A model generated the notes under the pieces. The model made no database searches. It saw only the letters and a program-made list of their open reading frames with translations, and was not told the origin of the DNA. The position numbers and the translations under genes are program-made. DNA of 64,000 nucleotides from a virus: positions 62,001-126,000 of the IMG/VR virus record IMGVR_UViG_3300026484_000087; one strand, written 5' to 3'. Positions 738-36,635 of the stretch are shown here, one piece after another. The first letter of the stretch is position 1, and every line of letters starts with the position of its first letter.

Positions 738-2651
738 TTATTGAAATCTGTTAAAACCTGCAGTAGCATATGGTGTTTGGTAAGAATTACCACCAGCAAA
801 TGATCTTGCAAAGTCAGCAGATTGTTGACCAATACCTGCACCAGATAAGTAATTACCAATAGCAGCAATAGAACTTTGTTCTGTAAACTGTACTTCTGGA
901 TCATATCTAGTCTCGAAACCAGCTGAAGCACATGCACTAGATAACGTTTGGATAAATTTACTAGAGAATGTAACTCTTGTAGCTTTACCAGAAATCTCTG
1001 CATTTGGAATAAGCTTGCTGATGATATCAACTTTAGTAATGAATGGATCAATACCAGAAACAGATTGTGGAACATTTGAAAGAGTCCATTTGTTAATGTT
1101 TTCACTAACTTGGTTTGGAGCACTTAATGTAGCAATTGCACTTAAGTCTAGATCTCTAATATCTCTAGATGCACCATCTTTATCTGTCCATGTACCTGTT
1201 GGAATATTAACACCATCATTAAGGAAGATCTCATTAGCTGGGAAATTATGTGGGAATGCCCCATTTGTTAACCATACAGCTGTAGATAAAATCTCTTGAG
1301 CTGCAGCATATTTCTTATCACCAACATCACTGTTAGCTGGAGCAGCAGCAACACCAAAGATTGAAGCAAAGTTACTATATGTACCATAAGCATCGATATC
1401 AATACTGAACATAGCATCTAGCGAATACATTTGTTTAATAAGACTGAATAACTCTTGAGAGTTTAGTTTAGAATCTCTTAAATCTAATGGTTCACCAAAT
1501 CCACTGCTATTATTTTCTAAGTTAGTAGAAATATTCAACTTACCAATATCGTGTAGTTGATCATTTGGTTTTGGAGCAACTGCAGCAAGCCACATATTTG
1601 GTCTAACCATAACAACTGATGAGATGATTGCCAATAAAGCATAACCTGTTGTAGGCATATCTGTATCCATAGATGTTAGAATAACATGTGGTCTAAGTCT
1701 GATCATAGATGTAGAGGCTGCTCCAGGTAATGCTTGAACAGTAAACTCTTCTTGCATAGCATCTACAAAACCTGTAGTTTTACAAACTCTTGTTCTATTG
1801 TTTTGTAGGTTAAGAGACTGAGCAACATTTCTGTTATCAATACTATTTAACTCAATTTGCCAATCAGCTCTAATTGGTTTACCTGCAGCATCCATAATTG
1901 TTGTTGGTAATAAGTTACTATCAATTTTAAGATATGCACCTGGAGCTTCTTTAATAGCTTCACTGATATTTAAATCTCTAAACTCTTTGTTAATTTTACC
2001 AATTTCTACTAAACATGCATTGTATGCAATAGAGGCAATTGGTCTTAAAGCAGCTGGACTGATGTCATTGTTGTAGTAAGGGATAACAACACCATCAACA
2101 GAGTAAAAGTTATAGTGATCACCATAAACTTTCTTAAGAGTATCTTTGATCTCGTTAAATAGTACAACGTCAATAGCATCTGATGCAACATAGATATCAT
2201 TAATTTTATTTTGATTGTAACTTCTTGCCAAGTTGTTATACTCTTGCATTACAGTTGCAGCATCAAGTGGTTTTCTACCCGTACCCTCTAATTGCATAAT
2301 GAAATAGGCAACCTTATTACTCTTAGCAATACTAACAATAACTGCACTATATGCTAAATTAGATTTAACTTCTCTATCAAGTACTGTAACTTTAGCTTGA
2401 TATCCATTACCAGCTTCAGAACTATAAATTGTTTTAAGTTCTTCACTCAACTTGTTAAGATATTCTGAACCTAACCCAGAAGCCATTGTGCTGAATTTCT
2501 TACCGCCAAATGTTAATACTGGCGTATTATCAACTACTGTCTCACTCTTTGGCATTGCACTACCTATTTGACTATTGATATCCAATTCAATTTTAGCTTT
2601 ATCATTAGCACCTGTTTCTACTTGTTCGTTGTTTCCTGTATGTACTGCCAT
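738..2651 (-). CDS. Large, probably abundant virion structural protein
   Basis: A 637-residue protein with a strong ribosome site (AAGGAGATAGT ATG) and no signal peptide. Composition is alanine, serine and asparagine rich, with a glycine/serine/glutamine-rich C-terminal tail, like a jumbo-phage virion protein. Codon choice looks like that of the sheath and tube genes, which suggests high expression. I cannot match it to a named family; a capsid, baseplate or tail-associated role are all possible. It is monocistronic, driven from the variant promoter at 2711-2745, with a 16-base palindrome in its 5' leader (2671-2686). Confidence 0.5.
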   Translation of the reverse strand: MAVHTGNNEQVETGANDKAKIELDINSQIGSAMPKSETVVDNTPVLTFGGKKFSTMASGLGSEYLNKLSEELKTIYSSEAGNGYQAKVTVLDREVKSNLAYSAVIVSIAKSNKVAYFIMQLEGTGRKPLDAATVMQEYNNLARSYNQNKINDIYVASDAIDVVLFNEIKDTLKKVYGDHYNFYSVDGVVIPYYNNDISPAALRPIASIAYNACLVEIGKINKEFRDLNISEAIKEAPGAYLKIDSNLLPTTIMDAAGKPIRADWQIELNSIDNRNVAQSLNLQNNRTRVCKTTGFVDAMQEEFTVQALPGAASTSMIRLRPHVILTSMDTDMPTTGYALLAIISSVVMVRPNMWLAAVAPKPNDQLHDIGKLNISTNLENNSSGFGEPLDLRDSKLNSQELFSLIKQMYSLDAMFSIDIDAYGTYSNFASIFGVAAAPANSDVGDKKYAAAQEILSTAVWLTNGAFPHNFPANEIFLNDGVNIPTGTWTDKDGASRDIRDLDLSAIATLSAPNQVSENINKWTLSNVPQSVSGIDPFITKVDIISKLIPNAEISGKATRVTFSSKFIQTLSSACASAGFETRYDPEVQFTEQSSIAAIGNYLSGAGIGQQSADFARSFAGGNSYQTPYATAGFNRFQ

Positions 2652-2814: not shown

Positions 2815-2958
2815 AGAAAAGTTTTTTACTTTCAATATATAGGCTTAATTATAAAAAGAATTTTTTAAACCTCTATATTATTTCATTAATATACCTTGTT
2901 TAAAAAAAATATTTAGACAGTGTGCGTTAATTTGATAATTAATATAAAAGGAAAGATA

Positions 2959-4047
2959 ATGATTAATCTATTTTATAGAAAAGATATGTTAAGTACCCCA
3001 TCTATTAAAGATAATAGATTAAGATATCTTAGAGAAAGATTCAATACTGAGTTAACAAATATAACTGAATACTACCATAATAGAAACAGTAAAGTTAAAA
3101 ACGACAATATCTTAGTTGGCATAATAACTACTGTTTGTCCAAACATAGATTTGAATATATGGGAATTTCTTAGAATATTGGATTCTACCGCATTATATAA
3201 TACCAAAACTTTTGGTATAGTAAGCAATGTAAATAAAGGCTATATACATAATGATACACTATTTAAACATAATAGCAAAGAGATCTATATCTATGATGAT
3301 TCTGACATAGATTATGACATTATAGAAAATACATGGAAGGACCTTAAACCATTAAGGATACTAAGACATGACTCTACTGATTTAAATTTTAAAATTCCAT
3401 CTGATAGATATGGTCTTGAAGAAGATACTCTTACTGTATGTAGTATAGATATAAAATTATTGTGCTTGCAGTATCGTTATTGGGCTATAGAAAGACTATA
3501 CAATGATTTTGATATAGACCCAGCATATTTTATTTATAGATATGTTTATACTAACACAACATCAGACTTTATGGATCTGGCTATATTAGAAAGATTTGAT
3601 TATATTATTAATGGTAAAGATATACCAATATATAAAAACCATCATCCCTTTAACATAATAGATTTAAACACTAAGATAGATAGTGTTTTAAATAATGTAT
3701 CTAAACATATAAAGCATGAGAATAAGACATATAACAATATGCTATCAAACATACCCTTATTATATAATGGTACTGCTAGAGAATTCCTATTGATAAAAAA
3801 TATCATGCCAAATAAACAATCACTATGGGCCATAGTTTTATCTAGAATAGATTTCATTACTTTACTTATGGATCTTAGTTCTGATAAAACCCTAAGAGCA
3901 AATAAAGATACAATAAATGATCTATTAATATTATTTAAAAAGATTGATCGTGAGAACAATCTAGATGTACTTGATAATTACCCATATCTAAAAGTACAAT
4001 ATGAATTATCATATGACATTATAAAAGAACAAATAGGAGAGCGATAA
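2959..4047 (+). CDS. Unknown protein, first gene of GGDEF operon
   Basis: A 362-residue protein of unknown function. I chose the start at 2959 because AAAGGAAAGATA precedes that ATG; an in-frame start 13 codons upstream lacks a site. The protein is rich in asparagine, aspartate, isoleucine and tyrosine, is mostly helical in character, and shows no membrane segment or recognised motif. Its stop overlaps the next start by one base (TAATG at 4045-4049), so the two are probably translated in a coupled fashion. Large soluble proteins of this type in jumbo phages are often virion components, but nothing here proves that. Confidence 0.7.
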   Translation: MINLFYRKDMLSTPSIKDNRLRYLRERFNTELTNITEYYHNRNSKVKNDNILVGIITTVCPNIDLNIWEFLRILDSTALYNTKTFGIVSNVNKGYIHNDTLFKHNSKEIYIYDDSDIDYDIIENTWKDLKPLRILRHDSTDLNFKIPSDRYGLEEDTLTVCSIDIKLLCLQYRYWAIERLYNDFDIDPAYFIYRYVYTNTTSDFMDLAILERFDYIINGKDIPIYKNHHPFNIIDLNTKIDSVLNNVSKHIKHENKTYNNMLSNIPLLYNGTAREFLLIKNIMPNKQSLWAIVLSRIDFITLLMDLSSDKTLRANKDTINDLLILFKKIDRENNLDVLDNYPYLKVQYELSYDIIKEQIGER

Positions 4048-4847
4048 TGAACGCAATAAACAAACTGTTATCAGAGATAAAATTTCAAATACCATCTGAT
4101 ATTTTAAATTTAGCTTTTATGGATACCCAAAATTATAGAAATACTGTAACAAGTATAGATGACCAAATAATGACTGACGTTATAAGAAAAAGATTAATGG
4201 TGGATTTAAACCTATCTAGTCAAGAAACTTTAAATGTTCCATTACAATCATGTACCTTATTATATCATGATACCGTTAAGACTGCTTATCAAATACCAAA
4301 AAGTATAACTAATGGTAGGAGTATTGTATCTGTACATAATATGTTATCTGGATACCACATGCACGGCGACTCAATGCTAACAAATCATCAATTATCTGGT
4401 AGCACTATATTAGACAACAGTATAGGTTTAATGAATAGTCTAGACAATGTTAACTTAAGACAAACTTCAAGGGTGGATTTAATTGGGGAGAACACTGTAC
4501 TTATAGACATGGGAATGTTAGACAATCTTGCTGCTAATATAAGCGTAGTTGTAGAAAATGATTATAACTTAAACAACATCAATCCTAGGGCGTATGGTGC
4601 TTTAAGTCATCTGGCTGTACTTATAACCAAAGCATATATATATAATACTATGGTTGTAAAGATAAATAAGGGACAGATATATGCTGGACATGAGTTATCT
4701 ATTATAAAAGATATAGTTGATGAATATAAAGATGCCGAAGAACTTTATAGAGAATACTACAATACTGTGTGGAAAAAAATAGCGTTTATGCAAAATAACC
4801 ATAATATGGATAAATTCATAACTTCAATGTTTGGGAACGTTATATAA
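4047..4847 (+). CDS. Unknown protein, second gene of GGDEF operon
   Basis: A 266-residue soluble protein with no recognised motif. It begins by TAATG overlap with the preceding gene and ends by an identical TAATG overlap with the GGDEF gene, so all three are one translational unit. The middle contains histidine/methionine-rich and asparagine-rich stretches (around residues 95-150), and the C-terminal third is predicted helical. A structural or regulatory partner of its neighbours is possible. I do not recognise the family. Confidence 0.7.
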   Translation: MNAINKLLSEIKFQIPSDILNLAFMDTQNYRNTVTSIDDQIMTDVIRKRLMVDLNLSSQETLNVPLQSCTLLYHDTVKTAYQIPKSITNGRSIVSVHNMLSGYHMHGDSMLTNHQLSGSTILDNSIGLMNSLDNVNLRQTSRVDLIGENTVLIDMGMLDNLAANISVVVENDYNLNNINPRAYGALSHLAVLITKAYIYNTMVVKINKGQIYAGHELSIIKDIVDEYKDAEELYREYYNTVWKKIAFMQNNHNMDKFITSMFGNVI

Positions 4848-5359
4848 TGAAAAATGACCTACTTATAGAGCAGTATGAATCAGAAATAAAAAGACTTAAA
4901 GAAGAAATCCTTAAGTATAAATATGATAACCTAACAAGACTACCTTTAAGATCTGATTTCATACAGCATATGGATAATTTGCTAAATGAAGTTAAAATGT
5001 TTCATAGACATTTTATATTCATAATGATTGATGTAAACGATTTAAAAAAGATAAATACAGATTTTGGTTATGTGTATGGTGATGCCTATATAAAAAGAGT
5101 TGCTAACGATTTAATATCCACTTTCAACGAGTATAATATCTACAGAATTGGTGGTGATGAATTCTGCATGGTTAAAGTTGGAAACAATATATCACAAACT
5201 GTTGGTAAACTTAATGAGTTAAGCAATATATCATATGGTGTTGTTGAATCTAAAAAGATAAAACATTCACATCTAGATACCAAAAAAATGATAGAAATAG
5301 CAGATAGAATTATTAAACGTAAGAAAAGAAAAATCAAAAAAAGAAAGAGTGATGTTTAA
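4847..5359 (+). CDS. GGDEF-domain protein, putative diguanylate cyclase
   Basis: A 170-residue protein: a short N-terminal coiled coil (about 8-26), then a compact complete GGDEF domain. Visible landmarks are DNLTRLPLR (27-35, the DxLTxLPxR entry), the metal aspartate in MIDVNDLKKIN (D62), N70 and D79 (INTDFGYVYGD), which correspond to the GTP-contacting residues of PleD-like cyclases, and RIGGDEF (100-106). The family makes c-di-GMP from two GTP. The RxxD inhibitory site normally just before GGDEF is absent, so feedback inhibition is unlikely. The C-terminal part is short but retains SYGVV and IADRIIKRKKR, equivalent to the SxGxA and ADxALYxAK segments, then a lysine-rich tail. No sensor domain is fused. 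Activity is inferred from residue conservation. Confidence 0.85.
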   Translation: MKNDLLIEQYESEIKRLKEEILKYKYDNLTRLPLRSDFIQHMDNLLNEVKMFHRHFIFIMIDVNDLKKINTDFGYVYGDAYIKRVANDLISTFNEYNIYRIGGDEFCMVKVGNNISQTVGKLNELSNISYGVVESKKIKHSHLDTKKMIEIADRIIKRKKRKIKKRKSDV

Positions 5360-5373: not shown

Positions 5374-5415
5374 ATTAATCTTAACTATTTTATGATTAAA
5401 CAAAAGGATAAAATA

Positions 5416-8400
5416 ATGTTCGATAATATAAAAATTAAACATGATGAAAAAAAAGATATCTATACTATAAATGCAACATTTGGTGCTAGATTTAAACGTT
5501 ATATGGAAAAGAACATTCTAAACTCAAAGAGAATGAAACAGCTATTTATAACTTATGGTCCTTTCGAAATATCATTCTATGGCTTCTTTGCATTGGAGGT
5601 AAGAACTGTTCTTGTGGCTTTTAATGAATTAGGGTTTTCAAATATAAACGTTAGATTAATAACTAAAGTTATAGAAGCCATAGAAAACAATACATGGTTA
5701 GCAGATATGGATAAAGAATATAAAGATGATTTCGATTACTCTATAATTAAGGACTTACTTAAATTTTCTATACTTGAACATCAAGATGATTGGTTCAAAG
5801 AGTATAATGCAGTTAAGAGAAGAATGCATTATAGAGGAAGATTACTAGATGCTGCACCTGGTACTGGTAAAGCACTAAAATTTACAACGAAAGTATTGAC
5901 ACCAACTGGATGGACTCCTATATATAAACTTAATGTAGGTGATGATGTTATAGGGCCAGATGATACGATAAATAAAGTAACTGGAGTTTACCCACAAGGA
6001 AAGAGGGAATTATTTAGATTTAGATTTAAAGATGGTAGAACAATTGATGCTGATTCTAATCATCTATGGAGAATATTTAATAGAAATGGTAGAAAAGAAA
6101 AAGTTACCATATCTACAACTTCAGAAATAATGGATATGATGAATAAATATAGTAATAAAAATTTATACATTGAATTGTTTCAACCTGATTTTAATAAAAA
6201 ATCTAAAGATTTATTAATAGACCCGTATTTACTTGGGTATCTAATAGGTAACGGATCTTTAACAACGGATATAAAATTCTCTGCTAATGATAAATTCATA
6301 GTTGATAAAATTGATAATATTGTAAAAGATAAGAATTTTTCAATTAAGTACCTAAACAAATTTGATTATTCAATTGTAGATAATTCAATACATTGTGATA
6401 ATAGATTAAAAAACGATCTGGAAGCATATGGTTTACATGGTAAAGAATCTAACCATAAGTTTATACCTAAAGAGTATTTGGAGGCTGAGAGTTTTGACAG
6501 GTTAGAACTATTAAAAGGTTTAATGGATAGCGATGGAACTACTAATAAAGATGGTTCATTGAGTTATAGTACAACCAACATGGAACTTGCAAACAATATA
6601 ATCTATTTAGTTAGATCTATCGGTGGTATGGCATATATAGACGTTAAATATCCAACATATACTCATAACGACATAAAAAAGAATGGTTTACCAAATTATA
6701 ACATAAACATAAAAGTAAAACATCCTGATGATCTATTATCACTACCCAGAAAAAAAGATAAGGTTAAACATATAAACCAACATAACAATAATCTTAAACT
6801 CAGAATAGAAAGTATTGATAAATTGGACAAGAAATATGAAGCAGTTTGCATATCTGTCGATCATAAAGATAGGTTATTTGTAATTGAGAATTTTGTAGTA
6901 ACTCATAATACCTTCAGCTCTATAGCTACTGCAGAATTGGTTAAATCTAATAAGATATTAGTAGTATGTCCTCTTCCAGCTTTAGATAAGGTATGGGTAA
7001 GTAGTATAGTAGATACTGTATATAAAACACCACAAACTTACTATGTTGTAGGAGATAAAAAGAAAGATTACAATGGTGAACGTTATATATTATGTAACTA
7101 TGAATCTTTAGGAAAGATAGACAAAACTATTCCTTTTATAAAAGGAAAAGATACTACAATCATAGTTGATGAATCGCACAATATGAACGAAACTAATTCT
7201 AAAAGAACTACACTATTACTTAACATATGTAATGCTATAGATTCTGACAATATACTTTTATTGTCTGGTACCCCAATAAAAGCCAGACCTTTGGAAATGT
7301 TACCAATGATAGAATTATTAGATAAACGTTTTACATCTGTTATAAAACATAGATTTATAAAATTATATAAAGCTATGCCCAAGGTATTAGTATCATCTAT
7401 AAGTGAAAGATATACAACCTATAGAACTAAAATTAAAAAGGAAAGTATTAAATTAAAACCAGTTATTACAAAAGAATATCCTTTAAAATTAAAAAATGCC
7501 AAGGAATATACTCTTGATACAATAAGAGATAAAATGAAAGCTTATATAACAAAAAGAAAAGATGAGCTTACTAAAGATATGTTAAAATATAAAAAGACAT
7601 ATTATGATCTTTATAAGAAAGCCAAGGAACTGGCTTTATTTAATAAAACCATTAAAGAAAGAGAATTTAAAGAATATGAAAACAATATAAAAATAATTAT
7701 TGAAATGTATCAAAGACGTAAACTTATGGATATACCTGATAGAATAAAGTTTGCTAATAAATTTGAAAATGATATAATTAGACCACTATTAGATCCAGAA
7801 GAAAAAAAATTATTCGCTGAAGCTAAAACCATAGTTAAATATCTTAATTTAAAACTTCAAGGTGAAGTACTCGGTAATGTTGTTGGTAGAGAAAGAATAA
7901 ATTGCCACATAGACTTAGCTAATGAAATAGACTATAAAAGCATCGTTAATAGTACTTTAAATAAAACTATAGTGTTTAGCAACTATGTTGAGGTCTGTGC
8001 GTCTGCTTATGATAGTTTAAATAAAATAGGATATAAACCACTAAGGGTATATGGAGAATATACAAAACAACTTAATTCTACAGTTACTGACTTTATGGTT
8101 CCTAAAAATGATTTAAATCCATTAGTAGCCACATACAAGAGTTTATCAACTGCTGTACCGTTAATAACAGCTAATGTTATGTTATGTATCGATTTACCGT
8201 TTCGTGAATATGTATTAAATCAAGCGATAAGTAGAATACATAGATTGGGTCAAAATGAGCAAGTTTATGTACATCAAGTACAATTAGATACTGGTGATAT
8301 ACCTAATATAAACAGTAGAAATATAGATATCATAGCATGGTCTGCTGACATGGTTAGTTTAATTACTGGAGAAGAAGTACTTACTGAAGTTATAAAAAAC

Positions 8401-8532
8401 GAAGGTACTGACGAGGGAACATTAAGTGTCGAGGAATTGGCATTTATCGATACGTTTATTATAAATCTTGAAAATAAAAAAATAAAAACATTCGTAGAAG
8501 AGAAAAAAATAGAAATATATGACTTATGGTAG
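5416..8532 (+). CDS. SNF2-family helicase precursor containing an intein
   Basis: A 1038-residue precursor starting at 5416 (AAAGGATAAAATA ATG); an upstream in-frame start at 5392 is poorly placed. The host protein is a superfamily 2 SNF2-like ATPase of about 692 residues. Walker A (PGTGK-T) is interrupted by an intein after Lys152. DESH and SGTP motifs lie in the first RecA lobe, and the signature Q-A-I-S-R-I-H-R-L-G-Q, typical of SNF2 motif VI, lies in the second. A charged helical insertion separates the lobes. SNF2 proteins use ATP to translocate on duplex DNA; in phages they are linked to replication, recombination or displacing bound proteins. Without splicing the ATP site cannot form, so splicing is required for activity. 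Confidence 0.88.
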   Translation: MFDNIKIKHDEKKDIYTINATFGARFKRYMEKNILNSKRMKQLFITYGPFEISFYGFFALEVRTVLVAFNELGFSNINVRLITKVIEAIENNTWLADMDKEYKDDFDYSIIKDLLKFSILEHQDDWFKEYNAVKRRMHYRGRLLDAAPGTGKALKFTTKVLTPTGWTPIYKLNVGDDVIGPDDTINKVTGVYPQGKRELFRFRFKDGRTIDADSNHLWRIFNRNGRKEKVTISTTSEIMDMMNKYSNKNLYIELFQPDFNKKSKDLLIDPYLLGYLIGNGSLTTDIKFSANDKFIVDKIDNIVKDKNFSIKYLNKFDYSIVDNSIHCDNRLKNDLEAYGLHGKESNHKFIPKEYLEAESFDRLELLKGLMDSDGTTNKDGSLSYSTTNMELANNIIYLVRSIGGMAYIDVKYPTYTHNDIKKNGLPNYNINIKVKHPDDLLSLPRKKDKVKHINQHNNNLKLRIESIDKLDKKYEAVCISVDHKDRLFVIENFVVTHNTFSSIATAELVKSNKILVVCPLPALDKVWVSSIVDTVYKTPQTYYVVGDKKKDYNGERYILCNYESLGKIDKTIPFIKGKDTTIIVDESHNMNETNSKRTTLLLNICNAIDSDNILLLSGTPIKARPLEMLPMIELLDKRFTSVIKHRFIKLYKAMPKVLVSSISERYTTYRTKIKKESIKLKPVITKEYPLKLKNAKEYTLDTIRDKMKAYITKRKDELTKDMLKYKKTYYDLYKKAKELALFNKTIKEREFKEYENNIKIIIEMYQRRKLMDIPDRIKFANKFENDIIRPLLDPEEKKLFAEAKTIVKYLNLKLQGEVLGNVVGRERINCHIDLANEIDYKSIVNSTLNKTIVFSNYVEVCASAYDSLNKIGYKPLRVYGEYTKQLNSTVTDFMVPKNDLNPLVATYKSLSTAVPLITANVMLCIDLPFREYVLNQAISRIHRLGQNEQVYVHQVQLDTGDIPNINSRNIDIIAWSADMVSLITGEEVLTEVIKNEGTDEGTLSVEELAFIDTFIINLENKKIKTFVEEKKIEIYDLW
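5872..6909 (+). other. Class 3 (WCT) intein with degenerate LAGLIDADG endonuclease, inserted in Walker A
   Basis: The 346-codon insert begins with Ala (ALKFTTKVLTPTGW...) directly after GTGK and ends with VVTHN before Thr, which restores GTGKT. The first residue is Ala rather than Cys/Ser. The three marks of class 3 inteins are visible: Trp in block B (NHLW), Cys at the block F position (AVCISVD) and Thr before the terminal HN in block G. An internal DOD homing endonuclease shows two LAGLIDADG helices, LLGYLIGNGSL and LLKGLMDSDG. The first has Asn where the catalytic acid is expected, so DNA cleavage may be lost or reduced to nicking. Splicing chemistry follows known class 3 behaviour and is not shown by sequence alone. 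Confidence 0.85.
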
Positions 8533-8550
8533 GATATCCTACCATAAGTC
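8521..8550. terminator. Bidirectional terminator palindrome
   Basis: A perfect 30-base inverted repeat (GACTTATGGTAGGAT and its complement) spans the stop of the plus-strand helicase and the stop of the converging minus-strand DHH gene. Its position and symmetry fit a shared terminator. Confidence 0.75.
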
Positions 8551-9491
8551 TAAGCTCTTCCTTCCAATACGTCTATTAAGTAGAATCCAATATCAAAATC
8601 GTGTTCTGCATTAAGTATTTTATTTAAATCAATATCATTTAATTTAAACCCTCTACCTGCAGCATTTGGATGCCCTTTAGGAATAGTAAGCGTAGTTAAA
8701 TCAATATCATTATTAGATCTAAATGAGAACACTATCTCATCCATAGTTATAAAATACTGGATAGAGAAAGGATGCTCTTTGGACATCATATTTCCAACCT
8801 CACTTATAAGATGACTATTGTTGAACATTGGAACCAAATATCCCTCAAATTCAACTAATCTTATCTCATTTTTAATAAGTTTCTTTTTAACACTATCAAC
8901 TTTACCTTCCTGATACTCTACGATAGCTTGACCCTTTTGCATTAGCTGTGAAACGCACGTAGCTTGCTGTGAGACGCAAGTTAGCAATTTATCATACTCT
9001 TCAGTACCTATAAGATTAAGTGCAGCAGAAACTTCCTTAGACTTAGCCAGTTTCCAATTCCATAAATCACGATCTTCTATATAGGCTATAAGTTCTGGTA
9101 CCTCATTATGTAATAGCAGCCATGTAAGACTTGCACCAGAATGATCCATATCGAAGTAACAGTAATCTAATCCATCTAACTCTTTTTCGGCCGAACTATG
9201 GTGATCTATAATAAATAGATTATGAGAAACATACTCCAACTTTACTAACGTATCTCTATCGAAAGAGAAGTCTGTCATTAATATATTATGATCCGCTAGT
9301 AACGCCATATCCAATTTATCGCCATATTGCATAGGCATAATGATTGGTCTTTGTAAACCCCTATCATCACAATATTTAATAACTGCTAATGCAGCACCCG
9401 TACCATCCATACAATTCTTATGTGTTATAAGTACAAAAGGTACTTCTTCATTATCAACACTATCTAAAAAATTTCTTAAAACATTACTCAT
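8550..9491 (-). CDS. DHH-family phosphoesterase (NrnB-like oligonucleotide/nanoRNA hydrolase)
   Basis: A 313-residue protein. Of two adjacent ATGs, 9491 has the better spacing from TTAGGAGG. DHH/DHHA1 landmarks are in order: THKNCMDGTGAA (about 23-34), TDFSF (about 73), IIDHHSSA (about 94-101) carrying the DHH triad, and a C-terminal G/H-rich segment HPNAAGRGF expected in the DHHA1 substrate-binding domain. Family members use two metal ions to remove nucleotides from very short RNAs or to hydrolyse linear and cyclic dinucleotides. The architecture is closest to NrnB-type enzymes. Near residues 171-185 a short duplication (TCVSQQATCVSQ) is present. It is the last gene of a minus operon with dUTPase and an ATPase. 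RNA turnover and removal of pGpG are both possible roles. Confidence 0.8.
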   Translation of the reverse strand: MSNVLRNFLDSVDNEEVPFVLITHKNCMDGTGAALAVIKYCDDRGLQRPIIMPMQYGDKLDMALLADHNILMTDFSFDRDTLVKLEYVSHNLFIIDHHSSAEKELDGLDYCYFDMDHSGASLTWLLLHNEVPELIAYIEDRDLWNWKLAKSKEVSAALNLIGTEEYDKLLTCVSQQATCVSQLMQKGQAIVEYQEGKVDSVKKKLIKNEIRLVEFEGYLVPMFNNSHLISEVGNMMSKEHPFSIQYFITMDEIVFSFRSNNDIDLTTLTIPKGHPNAAGRGFKLNDIDLNKILNAEHDFDIGFYLIDVLEGRA

Positions 9492-9521
9492 CATTTCCTC
9501 CTAAATATCTAACTCTTCTTA

Positions 9522-34972: not shown

Positions 34973-36013
34973 TTACTCTATATAGATTATTAACTTATCT
35001 AAACCATCAACTTTACCAACGACATTAAAGTCATCGCACATTTTATAAAATACATCTTCCTCGCCCTCTTCATTATTTATAACGATTTCAGTTACAGACA
35101 AATTACCATTGCGTATTAAGGGTAATCTAGTTTTTGCATCAGTTGCAGTAAATACAGTGTATGCTATTTCATTTATATCTAAGTATCTGATGATATCCTC
35201 ATAACTTCTTTCAGTATGAATATAATCCATATATTCTACTTTAAGTCCGATGTCAAGATATCTTTGTCTGTCATAACCGTATTCATAAACGGTACCCATT
35301 AGACCATTTCTGTTATTATGGTAATAGTTAAGTCTATTTATAAAAGCTGGAGTATACGTCGCCTCTATATCAGTGATGCTTGCGTGTGGATTATTCTCTG
35401 GCTGATCAAAGTATGAGAAGTCATGTAAGATATAGCTTTCCTGTACATTGAAACGCTTCTCTATTTGTTCAACAGTTATTTCCAATGCCTTATTGGCTTT
35501 AGTATCCCCAGAGATAACTACCATTGCACCATTAGTGTTACCGACAGCAAATCCAAAACTTTTAACATGATGAACTCCTTCTATTGCCACAAGGAAGTTG
35601 TCCAGTTCAGTGTGTCCGAGAGTTTTAAACTCAGCTATCTGAACCATATTATAAATAGGTGCATTGACATACTTACCGTTTACCATTTCTTCATTCTTAG
35701 GTAGGAATAAAGCCAACTCAGCACCGATATCCTTAGCATATCTAACTATAGTTGTTTTACCTAGTACAAAATATCTATAATATAGCAGTGATTTTAAACT
35801 ACCAACATGATCATCATCAAGATGCGTTATTACAACAAAATCCATTTCTTCTAATATCTCTGGCTTATGTTCCTTAAGATGTGGAAATACGTTATATCCA
35901 CAATCAAATAGCATATTAGTTCCAGCACACGTTATATAAAAACTACTATTTATTAATTCAGTGTCAAATGCACCACCACTACCGATAACTTCTACCTTTA
36001 AATTTTTACTCAT
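34973..36013 (-). CDS. Metallo-beta-lactamase-fold hydrolase (RNase Z / Apyc1-like)
   Basis: A 346-residue protein; ATG 36013 follows AAGGAGTTGAAC. MBL landmarks are visible: GSGGAF (11-16), LFDCGYNVFP (36-45), VITHLDDDHVGS (61-72) and VVISGDTKAN with a following histidine/aspartate segment. Canonical HxHxDH reads H-x-D-x-D-H here, an Asp replacing the second His, which may alter metal binding. The N-terminal layout is like RNase Z and the phage anti-Pycsar nuclease Apyc1, which hydrolyses cyclic nucleotides to disarm host signalling. Substrate is not determined by sequence. It sits in the long accessory operon with other unknown small proteins. Confidence 0.75.
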   Translation of the reverse strand: MSKNLKVEVIGSGGAFDTELINSSFYITCAGTNMLFDCGYNVFPHLKEHKPEILEEMDFVVITHLDDDHVGSLKSLLYYRYFVLGKTTIVRYAKDIGAELALFLPKNEEMVNGKYVNAPIYNMVQIAEFKTLGHTELDNFLVAIEGVHHVKSFGFAVGNTNGAMVVISGDTKANKALEITVEQIEKRFNVQESYILHDFSYFDQPENNPHASITDIEATYTPAFINRLNYYHNNRNGLMGTVYEYGYDRQRYLDIGLKVEYMDYIHTERSYEDIIRYLDINEIAYTVFTATDAKTRLPLIRNGNLSVTEIVINNEEGEEDVFYKMCDDFNVVGKVDGLDKLIIYIE

Positions 36014-36023
36014 GTTCAACTCC

Positions 36024-36635
36024 TTATACATCTAAATTGCTTAGCAAATTATTTATTAATAAACTCTCATACGTATCCATTTTATCATTTACTGGGAATA
36101 ATATCATGGAACCATCTGGATTTAAGTAAGTCATACTGTGGTCAGTTATATCTCCTGAACCATCATAAGTAAATTCGTTTATATACTTTACGTTCCCTTC
36201 AGAATCTTCTTGAAACATAATTAGATAAAATTTTTCACCCCAACCTCTATCGTACCAGTCTTCACCCATATGTTTTTCTAAATCTATAGAGAAATCTTCA
36301 GTAGTTATCTCTATTTTACTGCCTTTCCAGTTAAACTCATCTGTTATAAGAACATATGTTTTTAGTTCATCTCTTATAGGTGCCTTACCTTCTAATCTTG
36401 TGTGGTTATCTAGGAATGCTTCACCTACGCCATATTTATCATAAATCTCTTTAAACATATCACCGTCATCATCAGATACTCCACCATCATCGGCAATGTA
36501 ATTCGTATAGTCTACCTCACCATTATCTTTCTTGTTTAACTCAACAAGCATTGTTCTGTTAATATCACTAACCTTTATAACCATTATATTTTGGTCATCT
36601 TTATCTGTAAATACATTTTCTATGTTTCTACCCAT
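36024..36635 (-). CDS. Unknown acidic protein, first gene of accessory operon
   Basis: A 203-residue, strongly acidic protein (DDGGVSDDDGDMF) with a beta-rich core. Start 36635 after AAAAGGATATACA. No recognised motif. It is the first cistron behind promoter P5. Highly acidic phage proteins can mimic DNA or bind basic host factors, but there is no specific evidence here. Confidence 0.6.
   Translation of the reverse strand: MGRNIENVFTDKDDQNIMVIKVSDINRTMLVELNKKDNGEVDYTNYIADDGGVSDDDGDMFKEIYDKYGVGEAFLDNHTRLEGKAPIRDELKTYVLITDEFNWKGSKIEITTEDFSIDLEKHMGEDWYDRGWGEKFYLIMFQEDSEGNVKYINEFTYDGSGDITDHSMTYLNPDGSMILFPVNDKMDTYESLLINNLLSNLDV

Follow-up and report, generated by a model that had tools for sequence, protein, structure and literature searches.

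The stretch of DNA analysed here (the window, 64,000 nucleotides) covers positions 62001-126000 of the 206,244-base virus record IMGVR_UViG_3300026484_000087. It encodes chimallin, the protein of the phage nucleus shell, and therefore comes from a chimallivirus-type jumbo phage, classed as nucleus-forming by gene content. A DNA-level search of known phages gave no near relative of the window. The GC content is around 30% throughout, including in the gene that is the subject of this work, a compact stand-alone gene of the GGDEF (diguanylate cyclase, DGC) family encoding 170 residues (Table 1). Such enzymes make c-di-GMP, the bacterial signal governing swimming versus settling. This is the sole GGDEF gene of the record. 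Searches of the phage for EAL and PilZ proteins and for Rfam c-di-GMP riboswitches found none, and PADLOC matched no defence system.

Table 1. Features at the GGDEF locus, in window coordinates.
Feature	Position	Strand	Basis
Chimallin (phage nucleus shell)	738..2651	-	PF25677 4e-12, phrog_4795 2.8e-40
phrog_3938 protein, first gene of unit	2956..4047	+	phrog_3938 1.1e-54; phrog_14481 6.7e-9 (virion structural family; weak)
DUF7484 / PHIKZ042-type portal-complex protein, 266 aa	4047..4847	+	PF24302 1.1e-70; PDB matches
TAATG stop-start overlap, DUF7484 gene / GGDEF gene	4845..4849	+	sequence
GGDEF gene, 170 aa	4847..5359	+	PF00990, AlphaFold2, Foldseek
N-terminal coiled coil, residues 2-25, core I7 Y10 I14 L17 I21 Y24	4850..4921	+	helix in model, heptad conservation
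DxLT motif D27-T30	4925..4936	+	D27, T30 invariant in 86-row alignment
Metal/guanine site D62, K67, N70, D79	5030..5083	+	conservation in 86-row alignment
RIGGDEF signature R100-F106	5144..5164	+	F93/Y96 upstream at I-site positions, not RxxD
13-bp stem-loop spanning GGDEF stop codon	5342..5373	+	-17.2 kcal/mol, z -6.55
SNF2-type helicase interrupted by intein-like LAGLIDADG region, next downstream gene	5392..8532	+	PF00176 4.3e-10, PF14528 5.1e-5

A reading of the letters alone (hereafter the sequence-only reading) had described the GGDEF gene as translationally coupled to two unknown proteins. The overlaps are there, since the phrog_3938 and DUF7484 genes share a TAATG at 4045-4049 just as the DUF7484 and GGDEF genes do, but neither upstream protein is an orphan. 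Both are conserved chimallivirus genes and one belongs to the portal complex, and we rejected them as signalling partners for that reason. The DUF7484 protein matches PHIKZ042 in the PDB (9xpe, 4.6e-31, 12 chains), as well as the "portal assembly protein gp233" (11ed) and the "portal protein gp36" (36za), and the domain occurs in 252 annotated phage records. The coupling thus appears to place the GGDEF gene in a virion-type unit and points to no functional partner. Because a strong stem-loop spans its stop codon, the GGDEF gene may end this three-gene unit; the hairpin is a candidate 3' end and a possible terminator or processing site. A promoter scan of the sequence gave no excess over shuffles (53 vs 48.5).

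The association is not a general trait of the group. The order chimallin (-), phrog_3938 (+), DUF7484 (+) is retained in several relatives (L001, L025, L035 and L084), but the GGDEF gene is not, and a check for coupled homologues showed that the link to the portal-complex gene is not kept. Among 80 IMG/VR records with DUF7484 only two have any GGDEF domain, a lower bound given that many of these records are fragments. On the other side of the gene, the LAGLIDADG insert of the helicase resembles inserts of phage terminases and primases (PHROG matches). A DHH-family phosphoesterase, below the Pfam cut-off, lies 3 kb from the cyclase gene (8550-9494, -) and could act on nucleotides or DNA.

Sequence and predicted fold of the GGDEF protein

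The reading frame (P0001) starts with ATG and is bounded exactly by positions 4847 and 5359. Its residues 25-114 match PF00990 with an E-value of 5.5e-17 (62.4 bits, for a cut-off of 23.8), so that by profile its membership of the GGDEF family is far above chance. The metal ligands, the guanine-reading pair and the GG[DE]EF loop are intact (D62, N70, D79, G102-F106, K67 and K160), in agreement with the residues listed in the sequence-only reading. We take the roles of these residues to be those of their counterparts in PleD-type enzymes. D62 and N70 are invariant in the 86 rows of our alignment, D79 is found in 81 and K67 in 84. Two other near-invariant residues are missing: the Tyr at position 157 is absent, and the His at position 75 is replaced by Tyr.

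The protein has just 26 residues ahead of the DxLT motif and accordingly no sensor domain. It also has no RxxD inhibitory site (I-site): the residues nine and six positions before GGDEF are F93 and Y96. The sequence-only reading had noted both absences and taken them to look like a design for being constitutively on. For the I-site, the comparison with relatives speaks against this. RxxD is absent from all five proteins of the phage family described below; of the 69 bacterial GGDEF domains nearest to them, one has it and 68 do not. We therefore rejected the loss as a phage adaptation: on this alignment it is inherited background, and no evidence of design for constitutive activity.

AlphaFold2, given the 86-row alignment, folded the single chain with a pLDDT of 96.0 and a pTM of 0.86; without an alignment the model was useless (pLDDT 40). 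The predicted N-terminal half consists of helices 2-25 and 35-52, strand 56-63, and helices 66-73 and 75-92. Next come the two strands of the GGDEF hairpin (97-100 and 105-111), a short helix at 115-123, a further strand at 128-134 and, at the C-terminus, a long helix (145-169). The best Foldseek matches in the PDB were diguanylate cyclases, namely PadC (6et7, 2.3e-10), DgcB (6ttr, 4.9e-10) and GCN4-WspR (3i5c, 3.3e-9), and the matches also included a T. maritima GGDEF protein, SiaD and PleD. The core elements of the domain are present and so are all residues of the GTP pocket in this single-chain model. Between the GGDEF hairpin and the last strand of the core, the chain is shorter than in ordinary domains, a trait also of some compact relatives from bacteria and phages. 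The prediction, a confident one, is of a complete but compact GGDEF fold.

A family of short phage GGDEF proteins

Searches with P0001 and one relative brought up four more IMG/VR phage proteins built in the same way, which extends the family to at least five phages. L109 (165 aa) comes from another chimallin-encoding record (G039), and L108 (222 aa) is encoded near phosphoesterase and NADAR genes. L110 (168 aa) and L212 (161 aa by the longest reading frame, around 142 aa from a later Met) are encoded directly upstream of terminase genes, as judged from the translations. In both cases the short GGDEF gene comes first and the terminase genes follow (L110:1457-5607 and L212:3938-7139), and inserts of intein or homing type interrupt the terminase of L110. 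As the surroundings of the family gene change from phage to phage, its function seems to be portable and not tied to the portal operon. Single-sequence scans of viral contigs were less productive: P0001 matched nothing and L109 matched only itself. Many matches annotated as phage GGDEF proteins looked bacterial (e.g., those in fecal scaffolds and in Acinetobacter MD-2021a contigs), and these were left out as phage evidence.

We built a tree of the five phage proteins with 69 bacterial and 12 other IMG/VR GGDEF domains, using 92 columns only, which puts deeper relations beyond its reach. The five proteins form one branch with support 99/94, recovered in 99% of the bootstrap trees. The nearest bacterial rows are mostly from Clostridia, a type that the search patterns favour. 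Identity to P0001 is 35-39% among the four proteins first aligned (P0001 included). Nine of the ten ligand or catalytic positions are nonetheless identical in all five, where 25 positions are invariant overall (hypergeometric p ~1e-7). The exception is K67, which is His in two members; Ala152 is missing in two members. The shortest reading frame listed among the nearest bacterial relatives has 238 aa, so that P0001 is shorter than all those listed. Its codon usage and GC content resemble those of the rest of the phage, which suggests a settled phage gene. The sequence-only proposal of a phage-encoded GGDEF protein with its catalytic residues kept is thus borne out across a divergent phage family, and the predicted fold is complete.

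The N-terminal helix carries a further family trait. Counting back from the Asp of DxLT (D27), hydrophobic residues occupy positions -3, -6, -10, -13, -17 and -20 in the five members, except for one Asn in L109 and for the shorter L212, which has only the last four positions of the heptad pattern (-3, -6, -10 and -13). The stimulating register of coiled-coil diguanylate cyclases was inspired by the highly active GCN4-WspR fusion, in which a GCN4 zipper is joined to GGDEF (PMC10396304). We read it from PDB 3i5c as -3, -7, -10, -14, -17 and -21; the offsets of both published registers relative to DxLT were derived here from 3i5c and the residue numbers in PMC10396304. The inhibiting register is almost empty in the five phage proteins. 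The phage register is therefore, at the level of sequence, single and fixed, and unlike both the stimulating and the inhibiting one. Searched against the PDB on its own, the 50-residue N-terminus gave no informative match. The fixed register supports a permanent dimer that does not switch registers, but does not thereby prove an active geometry. Because it is neither stimulating nor inhibiting, the activity of P0001 cannot be read from its sequence. A cyclase that is constitutively on, as proposed in the sequence-only reading, is plausible for a stand-alone protein with a fixed coiled coil, but its register gives no such assurance.

Proposed function and alternatives

We infer from the sequence and predicted fold that P0001 is an active, unregulated, stand-alone dimeric c-di-GMP synthase made together with virion proteins, and hold this, including its dimerisation, activity, timing and effect, to be somewhat better than an even bet. 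Two chains would be joined by their N-terminal helices, wound into a parallel coiled coil, and their GGDEF domains thereby kept together. In each domain N70 and D79 would bind GTP, while D62 and the GGDEF loop would bind metal ions; c-di-GMP would be made by the pair. With no sensor, no product-inhibition site and one coiled-coil register, only the level of expression would determine the output. As the gene appears to close a unit that includes portal-complex genes, the protein is probably made with virion proteins. The resulting rise of c-di-GMP in the infected cell would most simply alter host motility, surface or matrix behaviour. The sequence-only reading had suggested that the host might be pushed to a sessile or biofilm state, or a cyclic-dinucleotide defence be disturbed. 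Phage peptides (YIPs) have been reported to raise host c-di-GMP by binding YfiN (reviewed in PMC9145820).

The family match, the predicted complete fold, the five-protein clade, the conserved active site, the common register and the settled codon usage argue for an active cyclase. Against it stand the register (-3, -6, -10, -13, as opposed to the stimulating -3, -7, -10, -14 of GCN4-WspR), the short and diverged second half of the domain, the residues that P0001 or its relatives lack (Tyr157 and His75; K67 and Ala152 in two members each), and the absence of EAL, PilZ and c-di-GMP riboswitches from the phage. A bolder version, which we consider unlikely, sees in the family a portable module of zipper-linked, register-locked minimal cyclases that moves among unrelated phages, nucleus-forming ones included, and swamps infected cells with c-di-GMP, for late host reprogramming or as a decoy against cyclic-nucleotide immunity.

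Some of the same observations would suit a weak or inactive GGDEF domain that serves as a module binding GTP, c-di-GMP or protein, for example on the virion portal. The shortened, divergent C-terminal half, the unusual register and the coupling to a portal-complex gene all fit such a role. Yet typical degenerate GGDEF domains do not keep all their metal and GGDEF residues, as these five divergent proteins do, and no PHIKZ042-type gene adjoins any of the sister genes. We find this alternative improbable.

Next in probability, and improbable as well, is counter-defence, where c-di-GMP or a related dinucleotide would act as a decoy, occupying a cyclic-nucleotide immune effector of the host or giving it a false signal. 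A role of this kind was put forward for polyvalent proteins of phages that contain GGDEF domains (Iyer et al. 2017, PMC5512222), and Panoptes shows cyclic dinucleotides at work in phage defence (PMC12657218). The phage itself encodes a metallo-beta-lactamase-fold protein with a weak match to the anti-Pycsar protein Apyc1 (34973-36031, -; PF23023 1.6e-8, 34.8 bits for a cut-off of 50), and the sister locus L108 has a NADAR-domain protein. However, the immediate neighbours of the gene are a portal-complex protein and a helicase instead of any defence-type gene, PADLOC gave no match, and a virion-gene context would be an odd location. Interference with immunity is a live alternative, less supported than a change of host lifestyle.

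A product other than c-di-GMP, such as 3'3'-cGAMP, c-di-AMP or an oligonucleotide, is very unlikely. GGDEF-like palm domains do vary in product, as in mCpol and in the Hypr GGDEF enzymes, but the guanine-reading pair N70/D79 is conserved in all five phage proteins. Least probable of all is that the gene came from a host recently and has no selected role in the phage: GGDEF genes abound in bacteria and are rare among related phage records (two of 80), but the protein groups with four phage proteins and not with bacteria (99/94), has phage-like codon use and falls below the length of all the nearest bacterial relatives listed. The phage clade already disfavours this explanation.

If P0001 is an active cyclase, then lytic phages that replicate in a protected compartment would have a c-di-GMP source of their own, and the protein would provide a minimal, sensor-free enzyme for asking what a phage gains from this molecule. 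The question was raised for polyvalent proteins, apparently with no test using a phage-encoded cyclase in the literature searched.

Comparison with known systems

GGDEF proteins of phages are already known from phage G (gp350), SP-15, polyvalent proteins and Bordetella phage CN1; the latter was found in BFVD with others. This work adds the short coiled-coil clade, the fixed register of its members and the occurrence of the clade in chimalliviruses. Our literature search gave no paper joining chimallin and GGDEF.

Bacillus phage G gp350 (254 aa, annotated as a GGDEF motif diguanylate cyclase) is, like P0001, a GGDEF protein of a very large phage, and its fold matches with a TM of 0.77. It differs by its greater length, its extra hydrophobic N-terminal region and its full-length GGDEF tail, and its profile score is 45.9 bits, as opposed to 110-239 for the four other family members. 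The 222-kb Bacillus phage SP-15 has an annotated diguanylate cyclase, drawn in a region of carbohydrate genes (PMC5977210). This protein (L241, 183-196 aa) is also a short stand-alone cyclase of a large phage, but it has a hydrophobic, membrane-type N-terminal helix instead of a soluble coiled coil, and a full-length domain tail. Phage diguanylate cyclases hence seem to exist in soluble and membrane-anchored forms.

The GGDEF domains of polyvalent proteins (PMC5512222) are phage-borne enzyme domains for which the same functions were proposed, but they lie inside very large, multi-domain injected proteins. One phage reading frame of this type (L128, 2926 residues) includes a GGDEF domain. We rejected P0001 as a polyvalent protein, as it has 170 aa and one domain. 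We also rejected it as an mCpol or Panoptes OptS protein. These are likewise small stand-alone palm-domain nucleotide cyclases, but OptS has almost no GGDEF motif and is adjacent to the effector gene optE, whereas P0001 has a strict GGDEF and lies between a portal-complex protein and a helicase. The YIPs of PB1-like Pseudomonas phages also come from lytic phages that raise host c-di-GMP, but they are peptides that bind the host cyclase YfiN, and not cyclases.

GCN4-WspR (3i5c), PadC, DgcR and DgcB, which include the best fold and profile matches, share with P0001 a coiled coil joined directly to GGDEF. P0001 differs from them in its heptad register relative to DxLT, in having no sensor and in its shorter domain. 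A further chimallin-encoding record (L053, G030) offers a contrast within the same phage group. There, the DUF7484 gene and a small opposite-strand reading frame are followed by a hemerythrin-like gene (PF01814 4.5e-5, just under the cut-off) that overlaps the gene of a full-length, 344-aa cyclase with RxxD (L053:7440-8883). The pair appears to be an independent case of a diguanylate cyclase in these phages, and possibly an oxygen-sensing c-di-GMP pair. Together with the five-member family, it allows the proposed function to be tested by comparison.
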